A DNA stretch of 32,985 nucleotides from Nitrosomonas sp. (lineage in GTDB: Bacteria > Pseudomonadota > Gammaproteobacteria > Burkholderiales > Nitrosomonadaceae): assembly GCA_017879645.1 (NCBI GenBank), contig JAAEXZ010000020.1, forward strand, positions 1 to 32,985. The letters are read 5' to 3'. The translations under genes were made by a program, and so were the position numbers. The notes below the pieces were generated by a model. It ran no database searches. It worked only from the letters and a program-made list of their open reading frames with translations, and had not been told where the DNA came from. Positions 95 to 28,073 of this stretch are shown here, piece after piece (positions within the stretch are counted from its first letter, which is position 1; each line of letters opens with the position of its first letter).

Positions 95-1933
95 TCACAT
101 ATTGGAAACAGCCTGACCTCGAGTGTGCTCCGCTGCGGCAATTTCTGCACGTATACGTGCGGCGGCTGCGGCGGTTGCGTCCTTGTCAGCCTGAGAGCGG
201 GCAAATAAAGCTTCCATCGCCATGGTCTCCACAGCTTCGCGTTCCACTGCGGCTTCGAGTGCTTCTGTCTCAAGCGCAATGCGCTCCTGCATGGCAACGA
301 GGGCAGCAGATTCGGTTCTTGCCTTTTCCAAGGCCACCTTGGTTGCTTCTTTTTCTGCTTCGAGCTGGGCTTTGGCTTTGTGTGTAGCCATGATTTTTGC
401 TTGTGCACGCGTGATGGCCAGTGCGGTTATTTTTTGTTCAATATCCAAACGTTCAGCCACCACCTGTTTGGCATCTTCCATGGCTTTAGCACGAATTTCC
501 GCATCATCGAGCAAACGCTGTTCAAGTTCGATTTTTTCATTGACTTCTTGCGTGGCCAGCTTATCCATTTGTATTTTTGCTTCGGCAGTAGTCCTCAATC
601 GAGCTTCCGCTTCTGCTCTTTGTTTTGCGACTTCCTTGCCATCCAGCTCAGCTTTGGCTCGTGCTTCGGCTTCTTTTGTAGCTTGTTCTTCAGCCTTGAT
701 GCGTTTCTGGAATTCTTTGGTGGCATTGATTTCCGCTTTCTTTCGCTCTTCAGCTTTTGTAACGGCCTCTTTTTCAACTTGCAGCGCTTCGGTAGCCACG
801 ATCAGTGCTTCAGCCTCGATTTGCATGCGTTTGTTGGTTTCCTCGAGTAATTCGGATTCAGCGATCAATCGTGCTTTGACTGCATCAGCTGCCGTATTTT
901 CTTTTGCAATGATGGATTCGGCAATTTCTTGTGCGACCATTTCTGCATTGACTCTGTCGCGAGCGGCTATCGTAGCCAGTGTATCGATTTCCGCGCGTTG
1001 TTTTGCTTTCTCGTTTGCAATCATTTCAGCTTCGGCTTTTTCTAGGGCTAAGCGAGTTGCCGCTTCTTCAGTCTGTAGCTTCAACTCCTCTGCTGCTCGT
1101 GCCTGGGCCTCGGCTTCCAGGCGCCGATTGGATTCTGTGAGTATCTGGGCCTCCGTTCGTGTACGCAGTAAAGCTTCTTCATAAGCCTGTTTTTCTATTT
1201 CTTCATAGGCTTTTGCCAATGCTAGTGCTTTTTGTGTCTCCTGAATCTTGGCGCTGGTTATTGCAGCAGCATTAGTATCGGCCTCGATAGCGGCGATTGC
1301 AATTGTCCGTGCTTCTTCAGCCATCCTGGCTTGATGCATCGCTACCGCAGCCGCTTCATCCTGTTTGAGTGCCGCGGCATGAGCGTTGTCCAGAGCGGTT
1401 GCTTCTTGTTCGACAAGTTGCTGGGTTTTCTCGACTATCGCAGCTTCCGCTTTGATTTTTGCTTCAAGTAAGGCACTCAGGGCTTTCTCCGCCTTGTACT
1501 TTTCCTCGGCAAGATGTTTGGCCTTGATTTCGAGTTCTCTTCGTGTATGGGCTTCCTGTATGGCTAAAGCCTCGGCTTTGGCTCTGGCGCGTATCTCATC
1601 GGTTGCAGCAGCTTCTGCCTGAATTCTGTTTTCGGCAGTGAGTCTTGCATTGGCTTCGGCGCGCGCCCGTGCTTCAGCGGTGACTCTTGCGACATTCTCG
1701 GCTTCGATACGCTTGTGGGCTTGTTTGATGGCGCGATCCTCGGCGCTTAGTCGCTCGAGATAAGCCGATTCGAGTTGCTGCTTGATACCGTTGATGAGGG
1801 AAGATTGTTGTTCTGAGTCGAATGATTCGTGCATCGATGAATCGGCTTCAGAAACAGAATTTTCATATTCATCCGACATGTCGGACGCAGAAGTTTTGCG
1901 CAGTGAACTGAGTAGACGTGACTTGAATGTCAT
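95..1933 (-). CDS. Large 14-residue-repeat alanine-rich coiled-coil protein
   Basis: I do not recognise this 612-residue protein as a named family. Residues 1-56 form a head: a basic amphipathic start (FKSRLLSSLRKT) followed by a Ser/Asp/Glu-rich acidic stretch. Residues 57-603 are about 39 consecutive 14-residue units with a loose pattern of Arg/Lys at position 5, Ala-Glu at 8-9 and Ala at 12. The phase slips by only one residue, near 449. Fourteen residues equal two heptads, so a continuous alanine-rich coiled-coil rod is expected. The tail is only nine residues. There is no signal peptide or membrane segment, so it is probably cytosolic; the basic amphipathic N-terminus could contact membrane. 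It lies 121 bp downstream of fliR on the same strand, with no clear terminator between, so it may be the last gene of the flagellar operon. The ATG at 1933 has only a weak ribosome site. A structural or scaffold role is inference. Confidence 0.8.
   Translation of the reverse strand: MTFKSRLLSSLRKTSASDMSDEYENSVSEADSSMHESFDSEQQSSLINGIKQQLESAYLERLSAEDRAIKQAHKRIEAENVARVTAEARARAEANARLTAENRIQAEAAATDEIRARAKAEALAIQEAHTRRELEIKAKHLAEEKYKAEKALSALLEAKIKAEAAIVEKTQQLVEQEATALDNAHAAALKQDEAAAVAMHQARMAEEARTIAIAAIEADTNAAAITSAKIQETQKALALAKAYEEIEKQAYEEALLRTRTEAQILTESNRRLEAEAQARAAEELKLQTEEAATRLALEKAEAEMIANEKAKQRAEIDTLATIAARDRVNAEMVAQEIAESIIAKENTAADAVKARLIAESELLEETNKRMQIEAEALIVATEALQVEKEAVTKAEERKKAEINATKEFQKRIKAEEQATKEAEARAKAELDGKEVAKQRAEAEARLRTTAEAKIQMDKLATQEVNEKIELEQRLLDDAEIRAKAMEDAKQVVAERLDIEQKITALAITRAQAKIMATHKAKAQLEAEKEATKVALEKARTESAALVAMQERIALETEALEAAVEREAVETMAMEALFARSQADKDATAAAAARIRAEIAAAEHTRGQAVSNM
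125..1765 (-). repeat. Array of about 39 degenerate 42-bp (14-codon) units
   Basis: The coding array corresponds to residues 57-603 of the coiled-coil protein. Aligned every 14 residues, units such as QAHKRIEAENVARV, TAEARARAEANARL, ESNRRLEAEAQARA and EFQKRIKAEEQATK share Arg/Lys at position 5, Ala-Glu at 8-9 and Ala at 12. One extra Thr separates units 28 and 29. The units are diverged, so this is an old internal expansion, not a recent slippage tract. Confidence 0.8.
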
Positions 1934-18666: not shown

Positions 18667-18999
18667 GACAACTTGAAAGGGTGGAAGAGGATCTGGATTC
18701 TGGCTGCAGAAAAGGGCAATGAAAGTAATATGATAGTAGATCCAGTGCGTTGTTGCATTTGCGCAACACAGGATTAATATCGCCTTGACAGGGAAAAGTA
18801 CCTTATATAAGCTGCGCTGTAGTCAAATATGACACACTTATGTTTGTTAAGCAATGTCAGCGGTAGGCGTTTGAATGAAAATTTTCCAGCCAGCAAAAAA
18901 TGGATTATCAATTTTTAAAGAACAGAGTTGGCACGCTCAACCACAAATACTTGCCTATGAAAGCAAGATGACAAGTACTTTTACTTCGAGGGGAAGATC
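18667..18999. other. Divergent spacer between yheS and the lipid cluster
   Basis: This 333-bp AT-rich stretch holds a possible promoter at 18785-18811, a 6-bp-stem hairpin (TGTTGC at 18751-18756, GCAACA at 18763-18768) and a small open frame at 18875-19003 that runs into the next gene. No RNA gene is recognised. Confidence 0.5.
18785..18811 (+). promoter_or_regulatory. Possible sigma-70 promoter of the lipid cluster
   Basis: A perfect -35 box TTGACA (18785-18790) is followed by TATAAG (18806-18811) at a 15-bp spacing, slightly shorter than ideal. A start near 18818 would give a leader of about 180 nt before the acyl-AMP ligase. Confidence 0.4.
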
Positions 19000-19003
19000 T
19001 TGA
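18875..19003 (+). CDS. Possible 42-residue leader peptide
   Basis: An ATG at 18875 opens a 42-codon frame (MKIFQPAKNGLSIFKEQSWH onward) whose TGA overlaps the TTG start of the acyl-AMP ligase as TTGA. This arrangement suits translational coupling. The upstream ribosome site is weak (TAGG about 10 bp away), the peptide has no signal or recognised motif, and a frame this size can arise by chance. Confidence 0.3.
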   Translation: MKIFQPAKNGLSIFKEQSWHAQPQILAYESKMTSTFTSRGRS

Positions 19004-20823
19004 GTTCGACAATAATCGAGTTGAACGCTCCGCAAACGCAGGCGTTTGATTTTCAACCTTCAAGCGAATTGCAAATAATACCAACACCGACACTTAATAC
19101 ACTCGTGCAACAGTTGGCGGGTTTTGACTCGTTAACAAGTGCTTTGGAATATGCAGCGAAGGGGGTAACTGGATACAATTTTTACGATGCGCGAGGTAAT
19201 TTGCGCTCGGTTTTGCCCTACAGTGTACTTAGGGAAAATGCACGTGATCTGGCGCGTCGTTTTATGAATTTTGATTTGCCACGCGGAAGTCGAGTGGCAA
19301 TTATCGCGGATACTTCACCTGAGTTTGTCGAGTTGTTCTTTGCATGCCGCTATGCAGGCCTAGTTCCATTCGCAATGCCGATACCCGTAAATCTTGGTAG
19401 TCGCAAAATTTATGTTCAGCAGTTGAAAGGAATGCTTGAAAGTAGTGAAGCAAGTATAGCGTTGTCCAATTTGGACTACATTGAGTTTTTGAATGAAGCA
19501 TCAAAGGAAAATATTAGTCTTAGGTGGTCTGGGACGCCCGGTGATTTGAAGCAATTGCCAGTTCGAGATGTTGACCTTGAATGCAATCACTCTGATGAGA
19601 CTGCATATTTGCAGTTTACATCCGGAAGCACGCGTTCACCCCGGGGTGTGGTGATTACAGAGCGCGCCTTGATGTGCAATTTGCAAGGCATCGTACGCAA
19701 CGGTCTGGAAATTACACCGCAGGATCGCTCAGCATCATGGCTTCCGTTTTATCATGATATGGGATTGGTTGGTTTGGTATTGGCTCCGATGGTAACGCAA
19801 ATATCCGTGGATTATTTGGCCACCCGGGATTTTGCAATTAGACCTTTACAATGGTTACGTTTGATCAGTCGTAATCGTTGTACTGTTGCATTCAGCCAGC
19901 CCTTTGGTTTGAAGCTTTGCTCCATGCGTGTCAGAGAATCCGATTTGAAAGAATTGGATCTTAGTTGCTGGAGGGCTGCTGGAATCGGAGCGGAAATGAT
20001 TCGTCCTGAGACTTTGAGGGCATTTGCTGAAAGATTTGCTACAGCAGGCTTTAGCGAAAGTGCTTTTTTACCATGCTATGGGCTTGCAGAATCAACGCTT
20101 GCCGTGACTTTTTCAAAGATTGGCGAGGGTTGTAAAAGCATACAGATAGATAGCAAAACACTTATAGACAAGAAAATGGCCGTGCGATTGCAGGCTGATG
20201 GTCGCAAACAAAGCGAGTTTGTTAATTGCGGTCGACCATTACCCGGTCATACGGTGAAAATAATGAGTGATGATGGTCAGCAACTGCCAGAGTTGATGGT
20301 CGGCAGTGTTTTGGTTCAAGGTGACAGCGTAATGTTGGGTTATTTCAATAATCCAGAAGAAACCAATAAGGCTCTGAAATCTGGGAACTGGCTTGATACC
20401 GGTGATATAGGATTTTTGTTTAATGGTGACTTGTATATTACGGGGCGTCGCACTGATGTCATTATTGTGAATGGGCGTAATATTCGCGCTCAAGATATTG
20501 AGGAGCTGGCAGAACAACAGCCAGAAGTGCGGTCACGTGAAGCTTCGGCTTTCGGTGTAACTGATGAAGAAGGTTCGACAACGATCGTGTTGGTTATCGA
20601 ATGCAGATTGACCTCAGTAACTGAACGTCAAGCGTTGATTACAAGATTGCAACAGTTGGTATACATGGCGTTTGGTGTCAACTGCATCGTTGAATTGGTT
20701 CCACCGCATACATTGCCTCGTACTTCTTCTGGCAAGCTTTCTCGGTTTGCTGCAAAACAGGGTTATATCCAGAGAATGGGCTTGGGTGAGCAGCTTTCAC
20801 TTGCAGAGTCTGGTGATCGCTGA
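19000..20823 (+). CDS. Fatty-acyl-AMP ligase / acyl-ACP synthetase (AasR-like)
   Basis: This enzyme activates a fatty acid as acyl-adenylate and probably loads it on the acyl carrier protein two genes on. The 607 residues are the usual FAAL length. The ATP loop reads FTSGSTRSPRGVVIT; Arg where acyl-CoA synthetases have Gly is typical of FAALs (compare TSGSTRTPAGV in mycobacterial FadD proteins). SWLPFYHDMGLVG is another FAAL hallmark, and YITGRRTDVIIVNGRNIRAQDIEE marks the C-terminal hinge. The start is a TTG at 19000 behind GAGGGG; no ATG occurs before residue about 88. Next to an epimerase-like reductase, an ACP and an SPT-like enzyme it resembles the acyl-ACP synthetase AasR of Caulobacter ceramide synthesis. 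The true acyl substrate is unknown. Confidence 0.88.
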   Translation: MSSTIIELNAPQTQAFDFQPSSELQIIPTPTLNTLVQQLAGFDSLTSALEYAAKGVTGYNFYDARGNLRSVLPYSVLRENARDLARRFMNFDLPRGSRVAIIADTSPEFVELFFACRYAGLVPFAMPIPVNLGSRKIYVQQLKGMLESSEASIALSNLDYIEFLNEASKENISLRWSGTPGDLKQLPVRDVDLECNHSDETAYLQFTSGSTRSPRGVVITERALMCNLQGIVRNGLEITPQDRSASWLPFYHDMGLVGLVLAPMVTQISVDYLATRDFAIRPLQWLRLISRNRCTVAFSQPFGLKLCSMRVRESDLKELDLSCWRAAGIGAEMIRPETLRAFAERFATAGFSESAFLPCYGLAESTLAVTFSKIGEGCKSIQIDSKTLIDKKMAVRLQADGRKQSEFVNCGRPLPGHTVKIMSDDGQQLPELMVGSVLVQGDSVMLGYFNNPEETNKALKSGNWLDTGDIGFLFNGDLYITGRRTDVIIVNGRNIRAQDIEELAEQQPEVRSREASAFGVTDEEGSTTIVLVIECRLTSVTERQALITRLQQLVYMAFGVNCIVELVPPHTLPRTSSGKLSRFAAKQGYIQRMGLGEQLSLAESGDR

Positions 20824-20828
20824 ATGAC

Positions 20829-21740
20829 ATGCCAAAATCGGTAGCCATTACCGGTGCTACAGGTTTTATTGGTAAGACCCTGCTTCAGAAGCTATCAGAA
20901 TCAGATTGGAAGATTAGAGCGCTTACGCGCTCTAATCATTTCGATCATCCTTCCATACAATGGATTCATGGCGATCTCCATAATCTGGATGCTTTGCATC
21001 AGTTGATTGATGGTGCAACGCATGTCATTCATTGTGCAGCGACAGTCAAAGGGAGTTCATTCGAAGAATTCTGGCGTATTAATGTTCAAGGTACCCAGAA
21101 TATCGTAGATATATCGCTCAGGCAAAATCCTGTTCCTCGATTACTACTGATATCATCGCTTGCCGCCAAGTTGCCTAGCTTGTCTTGGTATGCACAAAGC
21201 AAGTACTTGTCAGAATTAGAGCTTGCTCGCCATTCGGATTATGAGAACTGGACAATATTTCGCCCTACCGCTGTTTATGGTCCTGGAGACAAGGAAATCA
21301 AACCGCTTTTTCAAATGGCGCATCGTGGATTTCTTCCTGTGGTGGGACAGATTCATAACCGATTCGGTCTGATCCATGTGGACGATCTGGTCGCGGCCAT
21401 TTTGGCATGGCTTGATTCAGAAACTCGAATTCATGGCATTTTTGAGTTGGATGATGGACTGACTGGTGGATATAGCTATCAGGAAGTGGCAACTTTGGCT
21501 CAGCGTACATGGGGGCAGTTTGTTCGTTGCATCGAAATTCCCGACAAGTTGATACGGAGTGTTGCATACGCAAATCTGTGGTGCGCCCGGTTGCTACGTT
21601 ATTCACCCATGCTGACTCCAGGAAAAGTAAATGAATTACAACATAGCGATTGGGTGTGTGATAATACGGCGTTGATTCGCTCGCTTCCAGCATGGAAGCC
21701 GCGTATTCGTTTGCAAGATGTATTATCTACAGTAATTTGA
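20829..21740 (+). CDS. NAD-dependent epimerase-like reductase (CerR-like)
   Basis: This is an extended short-chain dehydrogenase of 303 residues. The dinucleotide loop TGATGFIG is at residues 8-15, an acidic HGDLHN follows the third strand, and the catalytic YAQSK is preceded by a Ser pair in LLISSLAAKLPS. FRPTAVYGPGD is the usual substrate-domain entry. By position, between an acyl-ACP synthetase gene and an ACP-SPT pair, it is likely the equivalent of CerR, which reduces the ketone of a 3-oxo-sphinganine or 3-oxo-ceramide. Sequence alone gives only the superfamily; a sugar epimerase cannot be excluded, but no sugar genes are near. It starts 5 bp after the ligase stop. Confidence 0.82.
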   Translation: MPKSVAITGATGFIGKTLLQKLSESDWKIRALTRSNHFDHPSIQWIHGDLHNLDALHQLIDGATHVIHCAATVKGSSFEEFWRINVQGTQNIVDISLRQNPVPRLLLISSLAAKLPSLSWYAQSKYLSELELARHSDYENWTIFRPTAVYGPGDKEIKPLFQMAHRGFLPVVGQIHNRFGLIHVDDLVAAILAWLDSETRIHGIFELDDGLTGGYSYQEVATLAQRTWGQFVRCIEIPDKLIRSVAYANLWCARLLRYSPMLTPGKVNELQHSDWVCDNTALIRSLPAWKPRIRLQDVLSTVI

Positions 21741-21764
21741 AATCTAACCCAATTCTAGCTCGAC

Positions 21765-22019
21765 ATGACAGACAGCAAATATGATGAGATCATGCAGTTA
21801 CTCTGTGATCGCCTAAGCAGCTTAACCAATACTCATATTGAAATCACACCGGAAACCAATCTAATCAGCCAATTATCCATAGACTCAATCAAATTGTTAA
21901 ATTTGATCATGGAAGTGGAAGATGCTTTTGATATTTCAATTCCAATAAATGCCCTCGCCGATGTTCAAACGGTTCGTGAGCTGGTGGATTTGATATATAA
22001 AATTAAAACGACTGCATAA
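21765..22019 (+). CDS. Acyl carrier protein (AcpR-like)
   Basis: This small acidic carrier of 84 residues has a phosphopantetheine site at Ser41 in QLSIDSIKLLNLIMEVEDAF, where DSIKLL replaces the usual DSLDxVEL of housekeeping AcpP. It is thus a specialised ACP. Its TAA overlaps the ATG of the next gene (TAATG), so ACP and oxoamine synthase are translationally coupled. It likely carries the acyl chain made by the upstream ligase to the downstream enzyme. Confidence 0.9.
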   Translation: MTDSKYDEIMQLLCDRLSSLTNTHIEITPETNLISQLSIDSIKLLNLIMEVEDAFDISIPINALADVQTVRELVDLIYKIKTTA

Positions 22020-23203
22020 TGAATTTACTGGAAAAACTGGATGCTGCTGCCGCAGCAAGAAAAGCATTGCTGCCGGATGGGGTTGGTGCTTTTGGTATCC
22101 CGATTGAAGAAGTTTATTCGGCGACTGAAGCAAGAATAGGGGATCGCCGCGTACTTCTGCTTGGAACCAATAATTACCTGGGATTAACCTTTGCACCGGA
22201 GTGTATCAGTGCCGCTCATGCGGCTATTGACCGTGAAGGAACCGGCACCACGGGTTCGCGCATGGCTAATGGAAGTTATCATGGGCATCGTGCGTTGGAA
22301 AAGGAGTTTGCTGAATTTTATCACTGTACTTCGGGCATTGTTTTTACTACCGGATACCAGGCTAATTTAGGCACTATCTCAGGGTTGGTTGGAAGCGGTG
22401 ATACCGTATTGATTGATAGTGATTCCCATGCCAGTATTTATGATGGCTGTATTTTAAGTGGAGCCGATATTGTTCGCTTTAAGCACAATGATGTGGCTGA
22501 CCTCGAAAAGCGATTGCGTCGCTTGGGGGATCGGGTTGAAACGACCCTTGTCATCGCGGAAGGTATATACAGTATGCTGGGGGATCAAGCACCGCTGGCT
22601 GATATTGTCCGATTAAAGAAAGCCTATCAATTTACTCTGTTGCTGGATGAAGCACATTCTTTGGGGGTACTGGGGGAAACAGGACAGGGATTGGTCGAGA
22701 AAACGGGATTGCTGGATGAAGTTGATTTCATTACAGGCACCTTCAGCAAGAGCCTATGCAGCATTGGCGGTTATTGCGTGAGTAATCATCCACAACTTGA
22801 GCAGTTGCGTTATGTTAGCCACCCTTATATTTTCACGGCATCCCCATCTCCAGCTACGATTGCTTCAACGCGAGCTGCGCTTGAACTGTTGCGCAAAGGA
22901 GGACATCTGCGTAAACAACTTTGGGATAATTGCACGCAGCTCTATGAAAAATTAAAGCAATCAGGCTATGTCGTTGGTCCGGATCCAGGACCCGTAATTG
23001 CAGCTATTCTTGATACGCCACAGCAGGCATTACTGTTATGGCGGAATTTGCTCGAGCATAATATTTATGTGAATTTGATCTTGCCACCGGCTGCTCCGGA
23101 GGGTAAATCGCTGGTGCGATGCAGCGTGAATGCCGCACATACACCCGAGCAGATGAGTTACGTTGGTGATGTTTTTTCCAAACTGCGCAGTCTTGTGAAC
23201 TGA
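22019..23203 (+). CDS. spt: Serine palmitoyltransferase-like alpha-oxoamine synthase
   Basis: This is a PLP enzyme that condenses an amino acid with an acyl thioester and releases CO2. The 394 residues are a typical length. His137 (SDSHASIYDG) would stack on PLP, Asp210 and His213 lie in LLLDEAHSLG, and Lys244 in GTFSKSLCSIGGY is the Schiff-base lysine. GTTGSRMANGSYHGH and FTTGYQANLGTISGL, with DSDSHASIYDG, resemble bacterial serine palmitoyltransferases more than 8-amino-7-oxononanoate synthase (which has NHASLIDG-like text) or 2-amino-3-ketobutyrate ligase. No other biotin genes are nearby. The coupled ACP suggests an acyl-ACP donor. The product would be 3-oxosphinganine or a homologue; substrate choice is inferred. 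Confidence 0.85.
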   Translation: MNLLEKLDAAAAARKALLPDGVGAFGIPIEEVYSATEARIGDRRVLLLGTNNYLGLTFAPECISAAHAAIDREGTGTTGSRMANGSYHGHRALEKEFAEFYHCTSGIVFTTGYQANLGTISGLVGSGDTVLIDSDSHASIYDGCILSGADIVRFKHNDVADLEKRLRRLGDRVETTLVIAEGIYSMLGDQAPLADIVRLKKAYQFTLLLDEAHSLGVLGETGQGLVEKTGLLDEVDFITGTFSKSLCSIGGYCVSNHPQLEQLRYVSHPYIFTASPSPATIASTRAALELLRKGGHLRKQLWDNCTQLYEKLKQSGYVVGPDPGPVIAAILDTPQQALLLWRNLLEHNIYVNLILPPAAPEGKSLVRCSVNAAHTPEQMSYVGDVFSKLRSLVN

Positions 23204-23247
23204 TTGGCATAGTCGTTTGTAACCGATTGGGTTTATGGAGTAGTGGC

Positions 23248-23901
23248 ATGAAAAAATTCTTGATGCTGCTGATAGGTGTTTTCTCATTTGCATGCCATGG
23301 TTATGTGTGGGGGATATCCATTAGCTATACGGGTTTTGAGTGCTTTGCGATCATTGATGACAATGATCCTTCTTCCAATCTGAATGTCATCGAGAGCAAA
23401 TTTGAGGTCAGTGAAGTCGTCGATGGTGGTTTTTACCGACTCAGACTGACGGGGGGAATTCCGCGCTTTACGAACGATAATCAGGAAGTATGTATCGACA
23501 GTATTGCAGCCATTGGTTATTCGGGCGTGCCGGAAACGGAAGGTTTGCCCAGTCAGTTGTCTTCTGTTGAAGCCACTGGGTATTTCAACGGGACTGATCT
23601 CGTTGTTTCGACTAACTCAATTTATACCGACCTGAGCGCTATCCGAGGTGCATTTTCTTCGTTCAGCAGCAGTAGAATTTATCCTGTATCCAATACATTG
23701 TTTTTCAGGTTTAATCCGCAGAAATCCACGTTTGTTTTGCAGAAGCTGATTCATAACAAAGGATTTACGCATACCAGTACAGGATCAGCCACTTCGATCC
23801 CGTTTCTGGAAACGATACTTCCTTCTTTTAACGATTCGATAATCGATAAGCCGATCATCCTGACTCCAACAATTAATATAGAGTATCAATTAATACAATA
23901 G
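23248..23901 (+). CDS. Unrecognised secreted protein
   Basis: I do not recognise this 217-residue protein. It starts at the ATG at 23248, with GGAG 7 bp upstream. The N-terminus MKKFLMLLIGVFSFACHG is a signal peptide; Cys16 is not in a convincing lipobox. The mature part is rich in beta-type residues, Ser and Thr, and has two further Cys (about 32 and 82) that could form a disulfide in the periplasm. No membrane helix or known motif is visible. It lies 44 bp after the SPT-like gene on the same strand with no terminator between, so it may be co-transcribed with the lipid cluster. A role in envelope lipid handling is conceivable but rests only on position. Confidence 0.75.
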   Translation: MKKFLMLLIGVFSFACHGYVWGISISYTGFECFAIIDDNDPSSNLNVIESKFEVSEVVDGGFYRLRLTGGIPRFTNDNQEVCIDSIAAIGYSGVPETEGLPSQLSSVEATGYFNGTDLVVSTNSIYTDLSAIRGAFSSFSSSRIYPVSNTLFFRFNPQKSTFVLQKLIHNKGFTHTSTGSATSIPFLETILPSFNDSIIDKPIILTPTINIEYQLIQ

Positions 23902-25157: not shown

Positions 25158-26276
25158 ATGGGAGTTCCTTTACGGCAACAGATTGCGGTTGGTAGTTATC
25201 TCATCAAGCAGAAGTTAAAAGGGGTCAAGAAATATCCTCTGGTACTGATGCTGGAGCCTTTGTTTCGCTGTAATCTGGCTTGTGCAGGATGTGGGAAGAT
25301 CGCACATCCGGAGGATGTTCTGGATCAACGCCTCTCCTATGAAGAGTGTATGGAAGCAGTGGATGAGTGCGGTGCGCCAATGGTTTCTATTCCGGGCGGC
25401 GAACCCCTGCTGCATAAAGATATGCCCAGGATTGTTGAAGGTATCGTTCGGCGTAAGAAATATGTTTATCTGTGTACCAATGCTCTGTTATTGAAAAAAA
25501 GAATTGAAGACTATACGCCGTCTCCTTATCTGACTTTCTCCATTCATTTGGATGGCATGAAAGAACGGCATGACGCATCCGTTTGCCAGGATGGCGTGTT
25601 TGATCGCGCCATCGAAGCGATCAAACTGGCTTTGGATAAGGGATTTAGGGTGACAGTGAACTGTACCTTGTTCCAGGGAGAAACCCCCGAGGATGTTGCG
25701 GAATTTCTGGACTATGCGATGGAACTGGGAGTGGAGGCAGCAACGATTGCCCCAGGATTCAGTTATGAAAAAGCGCCACAGCAAGACGTCTTTATCAAGA
25801 GTCAAGATACCAAGATCCTGTTTCGAGGCATTTTTGAATTAGGTAAGAAATTAAAACGCAAGTGGCGACTCAATCACTCTGCACTTTATCTGGATTATTT
25901 GGCTGGGAATCAGGATTATAACTGTACCCCTTGGGGTAATCCGACGCGTAATGTGTTTGGTTGGCAAAAGCCATGCTATTTGTTGTCCGATGAAGGATAC
26001 GCAAAATCTTTTAAAGAGTTACTCGAGGATACCCCGTGGGAAAAATATGGCACAGCCAATAATCCCAAATGTGCTCAATGCATGGCGCATTGTGGGTATG
26101 AGGCAACAGCCGTGGAAGATACGTTGCGGCATCCTTGGAAAGCGCTCATCACATCATTGAAAGGTCCGAGAACGACAGGGCCGATGGTGGCCGAACCTAC
26201 ACCCAAATGGACAAGCAAAGAGATCAACGCTCCCGAGAAGTTATCGGAGATCACGGCTTCTATCATCAACAAATAG
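25158..26276 (+). CDS. hpnH: Adenosylhopane synthase HpnH (radical SAM)
   Basis: HpnH joins the 5'-deoxyadenosyl radical of SAM to diploptene and gives adenosylhopane, the first step to C35 extended hopanoids. The 372 residues are the family length. The radical-SAM cluster Cys are C38, C42 and C45 in RCNLACAGCGK; GGEPLLH is the SAM-binding glycine motif. The C-terminal part has CTPWGNPTRNVFGWQKPCYL and CAQCMAHCGYEATAV, typical of HpnH. A strong GGAGG precedes the ATG. hpnB and hpnM follow. Squalene-hopene cyclase and the HpnG nucleosidase are not in the window. Confidence 0.96.
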   Translation: MGVPLRQQIAVGSYLIKQKLKGVKKYPLVLMLEPLFRCNLACAGCGKIAHPEDVLDQRLSYEECMEAVDECGAPMVSIPGGEPLLHKDMPRIVEGIVRRKKYVYLCTNALLLKKRIEDYTPSPYLTFSIHLDGMKERHDASVCQDGVFDRAIEAIKLALDKGFRVTVNCTLFQGETPEDVAEFLDYAMELGVEAATIAPGFSYEKAPQQDVFIKSQDTKILFRGIFELGKKLKRKWRLNHSALYLDYLAGNQDYNCTPWGNPTRNVFGWQKPCYLLSDEGYAKSFKELLEDTPWEKYGTANNPKCAQCMAHCGYEATAVEDTLRHPWKALITSLKGPRTTGPMVAEPTPKWTSKEINAPEKLSEITASIINK

Positions 26277-26335
26277 GCTAGTCCTGATTCAATGGTTTTG
26301 GTTTTGCCATCTTTCCATGTGCAGCAGCGGTGTTA

Positions 26336-27463
26336 ATGGAATTGCTATCGTATCTATGTCTATGCGGCGCACTGTGCTGGTGTGCCCTGATTTTATTGCC
26401 ATGGCGGCCTTGGAGTACGCGTGAGAGACTAGAGGCGCCGAGCGCAGAACATGCGCAAGCACGATTGAATGATATTACTGTACTGATTCCAGCGCGCAAT
26501 GAAAGCGATTGCATTGAGCAGACACTTCGCGATTTGAGAGCACAGGGTAGTGAGATGCGTATCATTGTAATCGATGATCAGTCCAGCGATGATACGGCGT
26601 TCAAAGCTGGGTTGCTGGGAGCGCAAGTCATCTCCGGTACAACGCCATCGCCGGGTTGGAGTGGTAAGTTGTGGGCGTTGGAGCAAGGTTTGAAAGAAGT
26701 TTCAACAACGTATACCTTGCTGCTGGATGCCGATATCCGACTTTCCCCGGGAATAGTTGCTTGCTTACGCCAAAAAGCATCTGAAGAGGGCCTTGCGCTA
26801 GTGTCATTGATGGCAGAGCCACCACTGCAGAATTTCGTGGAGCGCTTATTGATGCCGGCTTTTATCTTTTTCTTCAAGTTGCTGTATCCATTTGCTTTGG
26901 CTAATCGGCCGACGTCGACCATGGCAGCGGCGGCGGGCGGTTGCATTCTGGTTGAAACGCGGGCGCTACGTAACGTGGGTGCGTTTTCCAGTTTGCATCA
27001 TGCTCTGATTGACGACTGTACATTGGCATCCAAGATCAAGCATGTCGGTTTGCGGACGTGGCTTGGACTCAGCCATGCTGCGCGCAGCCATCGAGGTTAT
27101 CAGACACTGCAACCCATTTGGCAAATGGTTGCGCGTACCGCTTACACACAACTCAAGTATTCGCCTATTTGGCTGGTGTTGTGTACAGTCATCATGGTAG
27201 CGATGTTTTGGGCTGCACCATTCGCATTCTTATTGTCAGCACCTGAAGAAGCGTATATGTTAAGCGTTCTGACTTGGGTGGTGATGCTGATTACGTATAC
27301 GCCAACCCTCATTTATTATCAGCGTTCCCCGCTCTGGGTGTTGGCATTGCCTGTCATAGGCACTTTATATCTGGCAATGACTTGGACATCGGCATTGCAA
27401 TACTGGCGTGGGGAGCGCGCTTGTTGGAAAGATCGACGATATGAAAGTAAAACAAATCATTAA
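26336..27463 (+). CDS. hpnB: Hopanoid-associated glycosyltransferase HpnB
   Basis: This membrane GT2 glycosyltransferase is found in hopanoid gene sets. The 375 residues begin with a membrane helix (about 2-24). The GT2 catalytic domain has ITVLIPARNESDCIEQTL, VIDDQSSDDTAF and the metal-binding LLDADIRLSPG. Several C-terminal membrane helices follow (one about 170-190, three after 280). Start choice is uncertain: the ATG at 26336 or a GTG at 26330, neither with a good ribosome site. Its end overlaps hpnM by 23 bp. The transferred sugar and acceptor are not fixed by sequence. Confidence 0.88.
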   Translation: MELLSYLCLCGALCWCALILLPWRPWSTRERLEAPSAEHAQARLNDITVLIPARNESDCIEQTLRDLRAQGSEMRIIVIDDQSSDDTAFKAGLLGAQVISGTTPSPGWSGKLWALEQGLKEVSTTYTLLLDADIRLSPGIVACLRQKASEEGLALVSLMAEPPLQNFVERLLMPAFIFFFKLLYPFALANRPTSTMAAAAGGCILVETRALRNVGAFSSLHHALIDDCTLASKIKHVGLRTWLGLSHAARSHRGYQTLQPIWQMVARTAYTQLKYSPIWLVLCTVIMVAMFWAAPFAFLLSAPEEAYMLSVLTWVVMLITYTPTLIYYQRSPLWVLALPVIGTLYLAMTWTSALQYWRGERACWKDRRYESKTNH

Positions 27464-28073
27464 ATTTGTTCAATGGCAATTTTGTAGTGCGATGCTGCTT
27501 TGGGCTTGTGCCGTGTTTGCGGCATCGGATGTGAAATCGGGCGAACCGGATGCCGTGATACATGAATTGCAATCAGCTTTGCTGCGGGCGATGCGTGAAG
27601 GAGAAAAACTGGGATATGACGGGCGCTATAGCTTTCTGGAGCCCATCATTGAAAAAACGCATGACATTGAATTGATCATCAAGACGATCCTGGGTGCCAC
27701 ATACTGGTCACAACTAGACAAGGAACAGAAAAGTCTGGTTGTCGATACCTTCCGTAAACTCAGCATAGCGACCTACGCCGGTCAATTCAAGCGTCACGAA
27801 GGTGAACAATTCGAAGTGATCGAGCAGCGGGATTTGCCGCACGAGCAAAAGCTGGTACGCAGCCAGTTAACCAAATCAGATGGGGGAACGGTCAATTTCG
27901 ATTATGTTCTCCATCAGGCCGAGGGACGTTGGCGTATCGTCAATATTTTGTTCGATGGCGTGAGCGATTTAGCGATAAAACGTGGCGAGTATCGCGCCAT
28001 CATGCAGCGGGAAGGCTTTCAGGCACTCATTGATCTCATCAAGCAGAAGATCGAGCTAGCCAAGCAAGGCTGA
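27441..28073 (+). CDS. hpnM: Hopanoid-associated MlaC-like protein HpnM
   Basis: HpnM is a periplasmic lipid-binding protein of the Ttg2D/MlaC family, thought to work with the RND transporter HpnN in moving hopanoids to the outer membrane. The 210 residues start at ATG 27441 inside the hpnB end. The signal peptide ends near AVFA-AS (about residue 28). The MlaC-type fold shows in YSFLEPIIEKTHDIELIIKTILG, FRKLSIATYAGQF and RWRIVNILFDGVSDLAIKRGEY. The 23-bp overlap with hpnB suggests coupled translation. hpnN does not follow in this window. Confidence 0.92.
   Translation: MKVKQIIKFVQWQFCSAMLLWACAVFAASDVKSGEPDAVIHELQSALLRAMREGEKLGYDGRYSFLEPIIEKTHDIELIIKTILGATYWSQLDKEQKSLVVDTFRKLSIATYAGQFKRHEGEQFEVIEQRDLPHEQKLVRSQLTKSDGGTVNFDYVLHQAEGRWRIVNILFDGVSDLAIKRGEYRAIMQREGFQALIDLIKQKIELAKQG

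Follow-up and report, generated by a model that had tools for sequence, protein, structure and literature searches.

The window analysed here is a stretch of 32,985 nucleotides (contig JAAEXZ010000020.1) from a Nitrosomonas species. At 19000-23203 it carries four genes, aasR, cerR, acpR and spt, which very probably make up an operon for synthesis of the ceramide backbone in this species. A first-pass annotation, made from the letters of the DNA, had described four packed genes with gaps of 5, 24 and -1 bp. We recovered the exact coordinates of the open reading frames and the same gaps for aasR/cerR, cerR/acpR and acpR/spt; acpR lies directly 5' of spt and overlaps it by 1 bp. The features are the following.

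18667-18999, no strand: intergenic region between a divergent ABC-type ATPase gene and aasR, inside which the operon promoter is expected
19000-20823, + strand: aasR, fatty acyl-AMP ligase / specialised acyl-ACP (acyl carrier protein) synthetase, 607 aa, TTG start (NCBIfam NF006624)
20829-21740, + strand: cerR, NAD-dependent epimerase/dehydratase-type reductase (3-oxo to hydroxyl), 303 aa (Pfam PF01370, 93 bits)
21765-22019, + strand: acpR, specialised acyl carrier protein with a DSIKLL phosphopantetheine site, 84 aa (Pfam PF00550, 45.5 bits)
21885-21887, + strand: codon of acpR Ser41, the expected phosphopantetheine carrier (hand count from the translation)
22019-23203, + strand: spt, serine palmitoyltransferase (SPT), 394 aa (NF047599; PDB match; tree)
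22427-22429, + strand: His137 codon of spt; by alignment the residue matches His159 in chain 2jg2
22748-22750, + strand: Lys244 codon of spt; by alignment the residue matches Lys265 in chain 2jg2

The motifs that had been read from the translations, DSIKLL in the acyl carrier protein and FTTGYQANLG and DSDSHASIYDG in the SPT-like protein, are all present, and Ser41 of acpR is the residue expected to bear the phosphopantetheine. AasR scores 849 bits against the fatty acyl-AMP ligase model NF006624, whose cut-off is 600, and PMC9386255 gives AasR the role of an acyl-ACP synthetase. Identity to the corresponding genes of the E. coli BL21 cluster is 47% for aasR, 41% for cerR and 42% for acpR. The TTG start of aasR is preceded by a purine-rich GAGGGGA just 5' of it, and the residues directly after it are shared with the other Nitrosomonas examined. 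A scan for consensus promoters gave 10 sites, against 13.2 expected in shuffles; since this is not above the shuffled level, the operon promoter is left unplaced.

The arrangement of the four genes is not a matter of chance, because it is kept in related loci. We listed 79 loci (the best of a longer list), and 56 of them have an SPT at least 75% identical to that of the window. All four genes stand in the same order on one strand in 55 of these 56; in the remaining one (L026) there are three genes, and the contig begins inside cerR. The closest named locus among those listed is that of Nitrosomonas sp. GRE_AOB_2, with an SPT 98% identical. The earlier suspicion that the host might be an ammonia oxidiser was right: the nearest listed loci bear the name Nitrosomonas. 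The window belongs to genome G000, which totals 2.81 Mb over 186 contigs at a completeness of 90.6%.

The spt product had been read as an SPT rather than a biotin-type enzyme, and this reading stands: the protein scores 571.2 bits against the SPT model NF047599 (cut-off 500), and it groups with SPTs of solved structure at 100/100. Its best PDB matches are SPT chains, 2x8u among them at E=9.4e-118; this chain and 2jg2 presumably come from sphingomonads. Our maximum-likelihood tree has 64 rows of our own choice, with CqsA and ALAS not on it. The window protein is placed among Nitrosomonas rows, and the SPTs of beta/gammaproteobacteria, some Nitrospirota and alphaproteobacteria form one clade together with 2jg2 and 2x8u (100/100, branch 1.11). 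BioF and Kbl of E. coli fall outside it, as does a BioF-like protein encoded in the window's own genome, so that the phylogenetic comparison proposed at the outset sets the protein apart from both BioF and Kbl, CqsA not being among the rows. Conserved residues stand at the positions of His159, Asp231, His234, Lys265 and Arg390 in chain 2jg2; those of the active site in the window protein are His137, Asp210, His213 and Lys244. Lys265 of 2jg2 is the lysine that binds pyridoxal phosphate (PLP). Lys244 of the window protein is flanked by serines (SKS), which also holds for the other SPT rows from proteobacteria and Nitrospirota; before the lysine the Bacteroidota rows have alanine, and BioF and Kbl have glycine (G-K).

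Two other identities have to be weighed. The amino acid substrate is not fixed by the alpha-oxoamine synthase fold alone, and the enzyme might carry out the same chemistry on something other than serine: alanine or glycine would give 1-deoxy bases and cysteate would give a sulfonolipid base. A cysteate C-fatty acyltransferase is indeed among the PDB matches, with a weaker E=2e-55, and the residue at the position of Arg378 of chain 2jg2 (see below) differs. Against this, the SPT cut-off is passed while BioF, Kbl and the cysteate enzymes match far more weakly, the protein sits in the tree with the solved SPTs, and the gene set around it is identical to the ceramide set. We consider a non-serine substrate improbable. 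If the protein were instead a PLP enzyme of the BioF or Kbl type, belonging to an unrelated lipid or secondary-metabolite cluster, the shared fold and catalytic residues would be accounted for, and so would the 320 bits that it scores against the bioF model TIGR00858. That score is below the cut-off of 426, however, and the protein does pass the cut-off for SPT. In addition, a second and weaker match to the SPT model in the same genome, on contig C65, groups with E. coli BioF, and the genome has the N-acyltransferase bCerS. With the cut-off scores, the tree and a separate BioF-like gene all speaking against it, we give this identity next to no credence and reject it.

The search of the genome for a bCerS homologue, proposed together with the original suggestion, found one outside the window on another contig. 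E. coli YghO, which is named as bCerS in PMC9386255, was taken as the query, and its sole match in G000 at E 0.01 is G000:C8:25943-27046(-), 51% identical to YghO (E=1.4e-126). All five genes, for AasR, CerR, AcpR, SPT and bCerS, are thus found in one genome, in the window and on G000:C8. The suggestion that the four-gene cluster resembles bacterial ceramide synthesis is in this way borne out by the family scores, by the SPT tree and by the presence of bCerS. The Pfam family PF04339, considered as the family of bCerS, has no match in the genome and was rejected: at E 0.001 neither YghO nor the bCerS of G000 has a Pfam match. Two Nitrosomonas genomes each hold a second and distant bCerS-like gene (35% identity), at G001:C18:1073-2191 and G033:C10:43244-44356.

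Further genes follow 3' of bCerS on the same strand. They encode a nucleotidyltransferase-like (NTP-transferase-like) protein, whose gene overlaps bCerS by 4 bp, LptF, LptG, a CDP-alcohol phosphotransferase-domain protein, a lipid kinase and a protein of 326 aa. This module resembles the Caulobacter genes for synthesis and transport of ceramide phosphoglycerate (CPG), as far as its predicted products can tell (PMC11324152). For CPG and CPG2 the comparison is with CC_1161, 1160, 1159, 1153 and 1152, and is one of domains (lipid kinase, CDP-OH-P-transferase and NTP transferase beside bCerS), which makes the module genes candidate orthologues.

By analogy with the characterised relatives, from which we take every reaction, the specificity for serine, the head group and the destination of the lipid, the pathway would run as follows. 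AasR would activate a fatty acid and load it onto AcpR. SPT would then make 3-oxo-sphinganine from acyl-AcpR and L-serine. The bCerS encoded on the other contig would attach the second acyl chain, and CerR would reduce the 3-oxo group either before or after this N-acylation, an order of steps that is disputed in the literature. The lipid kinase and the CDP-alcohol phosphotransferase-like and nucleotidyltransferase-like proteins encoded next to bCerS would probably add a head group of the phosphoglycerate type, and LptF/LptG of the same cluster would probably carry the lipid to the outer membrane. Concerning the order of steps, CerR has been placed in the periplasm in C. crescentus, according to PMC11087976. 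In the window CerR has no N-terminal extension, and if the start is right there is no room for a signal peptide, because the Rossmann motif GATGFIG begins at residue 9. Likewise there is no room for one in E. coli CerR or in six other Nitrosomonas CerR examined. The N-terminus of CerR bears on the order of the reactions without deciding it.

What we observe directly, then, is the content and order of the genes, the membership of their products in families, the conserved catalytic residues and the distribution of the genes. As to distribution, SPT is present in 82 of the 85 genomes of the genus Nitrosomonas (81 over the cut-off); bCerS is likewise present in 82 of the 85, and 81 have both. Across the family Nitrosomonadaceae 120 of 125 genomes have SPT (119 over the cut-off), with all 4 of its 4 genera represented, and the count is 98 of 99 for genomes with a completeness of 90% or more and a contamination of 5% or less. 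Of 369 genomes drawn evenly from the class, 23 have SPT, two of the 23 being Nitrosomonas.

Several points weigh against the ceramide assignment. One genome assigned to Nitrosomonas and 91% complete (G047) has neither SPT nor bCerS. No report of sphingolipid, enzyme or expression data from Nitrosomonas was among the papers listed in our literature search, which was thin in subscription journals. Two proteins of the module, bCerS and the 326-aa protein, have no Pfam match, and the head-group genes are putatively assigned, by domain and neighbourhood. Finally, the window SPT has leucine at the position of Arg378 of chain 2jg2, an important residue. Leucine is found here in all 11 of the 11 Nitrosomonas rows, the window included. 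Residues other than arginine are also found in 36 of the 38 other rows of the SPT clade and Bacteroidota, among them all beta/gamma, Nitrospirota and Bacteroidota rows; arginine occurs in two of the four alpha rows and in BioF. Arginine at this position is not a defining feature of SPT, most SPT rows lacking it.

The operon alone merely adds a species to a published list, and its setting in the family matters more. LpxC is the committed enzyme of lipid A synthesis, needed by all known routes to lipid A. We chose 16 of the 125 Nitrosomonadaceae genomes, mostly for completeness (14 Nitrosomonas and two of another genus; nine in a single contig; 13 in one or two contigs and 99-100% complete), and searched them for LptF/LptG and, as the only one among the lpx/Kdo genes, for LpxC. 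None of the 16 has a match to LpxC. At E <1e-100 LpxC was found in both of two genomes from another family of the same order and in both of two from Nitrospirota; of 14 named controls, 4 have it. With PF03739 there are exactly two LptF/LptG proteins in 15 of the 16 genomes and three in the other (G017), compared with four in each of two Nitrospirota genomes with the ceramide cluster. In the 14 Nitrosomonas genomes bCerS and the nearer member of the LptF/LptG pair are 92 to 926 bp apart, and the pair is also in the bCerS cluster in the two genomes of the other genus. In G017 an extra LptF-like gene (L168, G017:C1:1623171-1624190), 74% identical to the genome's own LptF, adjoins an NTP-transferase-like gene (70%), away from the main cluster.

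These LptF proteins are related to those of sphingolipid clusters. Trees were made of 34 rows for LptF and 29 rows for LptG, with open reading frames longer than 385 residues cut to the last 385; the trees are without L056, L058, L146, L148, L152 and the copies in L168 to L173, and the LptF tree has no lipopolysaccharide (LPS)-type betaproteobacterial LptF among its rows. Nitrosomonadaceae LptF falls within a clade made up of LptF proteins encoded in ceramide clusters (97/96), and LptF of E. coli K-12, 6mjp and 5x5y stands outside this clade. The agreement of LptG is weaker: Nitrosomonadaceae LptG groups with three rows from ceramide clusters (85/82), and E. coli K-12 LptG is unresolved. On the trees, one and the same genome (G489) holds the nearest outside relative of both LptF (97/90) and SPT (100/92) of the Nitrosomonadaceae, and this shared relative suggests a joint arrival of transporter and ceramide genes.

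From these gene distributions and trees we lean, with a good deal of reserve, towards the view that the Nitrosomonadaceae have lost lipid A. The outer leaflet would be built from ceramide-based and probably phosphoglycerate-headed lipids, exported by a sphingolipid-type LptF2/LptG2 which displaced the LPS-type pair. That LptF2/LptG2 should be the export pair to remain would make sense because the cargo would be sphingolipid. There is a competing account, according to which lipid A is made through a divergent first enzyme, or else plain genome reduction took place without any replacement, and whatever lipid is produced leaves through the single LptF/LptG pair. The scores of the pair are in favour of it, being over the NCBI cut-offs for LPS export (308 against 230 bits for LptF, 314 against 240 for LptG), which is a point against a sphingolipid-type transporter. 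But the pair from the E. coli ceramide cluster is likewise over these cut-offs, so they do not separate the two types. The 2010 survey by Opiyo et al. (PMC3087551) also speaks for this account. It ascribes the loss of lipid A genes to genome reduction, and it still reports lpxK, alone out of nine genes, in N. europaea and cites lpxA, and no other, in Nitrosospira multiformis. On the other side stand the contrast of LpxC between the family (none in 16) and another family of the order (two of two) and the position of LptF inside the clade of the sphingolipid clusters. On balance we find an origin in a divergent enzyme or plain reduction rather doubtful, and a replacement would explain the near-missing lipid A pathway of N. 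europaea and N. multiformis.

If lipid A has indeed been replaced by ceramide-based lipids, this would be a further proteobacterial clade, besides the sphingomonads, with sphingolipid in place of lipopolysaccharide. The word sphingolipid does not occur in the available text of PMC3087551. In the available text of PMC9386255 and PMC11324152, including each place there that spells out Nitrosomonas, no statement of missing lipid A is made. It is an open question why lipid A is needed by most Gram-negative bacteria but not by a few of them (PMC10964400). Survival without lipopolysaccharide is aided in C. crescentus by an anionic sphingolipid, according to PMC10331486. The Nitrosomonadaceae, with cultured members, near-universal SPT, LpxC in none of 16 genomes and a lone sphingolipid-type LptF/LptG, would be a natural test case, and the family context makes an LPS-free, sphingolipid-based outer membrane in ammonia oxidisers directly testable. 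Such a membrane might matter for the use of lipids as biomarkers of nitrifiers, and for how ammonia oxidisers fare against grazers, detergents and cationic peptides.

The four genes also occur in another phylum. Eight Nitrospirota loci (L054-L059, L061, L069) have aasR-cerR-acpR-spt in the order of the window. Seven of the eight also have bCerS and an NTP-transferase-like gene, and L054 ends at the end of a contig; six of the seven have LptF2-type genes and five have LptG2-type genes. By their gene content these loci appear to be a ceramide cluster outside the Proteobacteria. bCerS was found in 6 of the 7 Nitrospirota genomes searched and not in that of L054 (the genome of L059 was outside the search). 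An even draw of 148 Nitrospirota genomes gave 3 over the SPT cut-off, including that of L056 (G087), and 56 with a match at E 1e-110. A direct gift of SPT from ammonia oxidisers to Nitrospirota was considered and rejected: the tree puts the Nitrospirota SPTs near another gammaproteobacterial row (87/77), and because this support is modest we name no donor. No report of a Nitrospirota ceramide cluster was among the matches listed in our literature search. A Black Sea survey (PMC11334938) found Spt-like proteins in 38 phyla; its main text, as far as available, lacks the word Nitrospirota, and its supplements may hold it. Separately, there is a deeper SPT-like group (L103-L114, L135, L136), made up of Nitrospirota and two gammaproteobacterial genomes, in which each of the 14 loci has a neighbour resembling cerR (26-30%), and 11 of them also have a bCerS-like match above 60 bits.

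Within the window the gene upstream of aasR, divergent from it, encodes an ABC-type ATPase, named by its sequence alone. On the 3' side of spt come genes for a protein of no known family, a protein with a peptidoglycan-binding domain, and then hpnH, hpnB and hpnM. The first of these (23227-23901) has a hydrophobic N-terminus and is found 3' of spt, at varying distance, in 31 of the 56 related loci. The three hopanoid genes (25158-28073) start about 2 kb 3' of spt; HpnB, at 369 bits, is just below its cut-off of 379. We do not adopt them as part of the ceramide operon: hpnH is within the fetched flanks in 25 of the 56 loci, in two arrangements (18 on the same strand, 7 on the opposite one), and 17 of the 31 loci without it have full 10-kb flanks. 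Elsewhere in the window, near flagellar-type genes, 95-1933 (- strand) is an open reading frame of 612 aa with a high content of Ala, Glu and Lys and numerous near-repeats, coiled-coil-like by eye.

The operon itself is already known, because the same set has been published for Nitrosomonas eutropha. In PMC9386255 the ceramide genes of strain C91 are Neut_0458, 0459, 0460 and 0461 together with bCerS Neut_1100. Similarly, PMC11324152 finds good orthologues in N. eutropha for at least 13 of the 17 Caulobacter cluster genes and states that this species should form CPG and CPG2. Our case shares with C91 the genus, the four genes and their order (the locus numbers in C91 being consecutive) and the distant bCerS gene. 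It differs in species; the proteins of two N. eutropha loci, L049 and L060, are from 52% (cerR) to 78% (spt) identical to those of the window. The window thus shows a known operon in one more species, and what is new is the context across the family. In Caulobacter the order is CC_1165 aasR, 1164 cerR, 1163 acpR and 1162 spt (PMC9386255 and PMC11324152), and the earlier statement that the same set stands there in the same order was right by these locus numbers. The C. crescentus region CC_1168-CC_1152 has the same ceramide genes in one place with the head-group and LptF2/LptG2 genes (PMC11324152), whereas the genome of the window splits them over at least two contigs. LptF2/G2 of C. crescentus are second versions, as PMC11324152 also states; 15 of 16 Nitrosomonadaceae genomes have no LptF/LptG pair besides the one near bCerS.

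E. coli BL21(DE3), with yghO-aasR-cerR-acpR-spt-lptG-lptF, has the same order of the four genes and the same 1-bp overlap of acpR and spt, and carries bCerS (YghO) and an LptF/LptG pair inside the cluster. Its SPT is 54% (210/390) identical to that of the window, and the 35-kb stretch of it that was searched has no match at E 1e-5 to the Nitrosomonas NTP-transferase, CDP-alcohol and lipid-kinase proteins. With the spt DNA as query and E up to 10, 4056 of 5426 complete E. coli genomes match at 60-80% identity, and the ten listed matches are all annotated spt. Sphingomonas is Gram-negative, has sphingolipids and is naturally without lipid A (PMC10964400); S. paucimobilis without LPS also appears in the reference list of PMC11324152. 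The Nitrosomonadaceae differ from Sphingomonas in being ammonia oxidisers and in the phosphoglycerate-type head group, instead of sugars, that we expect of them. If lipid A has been replaced in this family, the two groups would have in common an outer leaflet of sphingolipid without lipid A.

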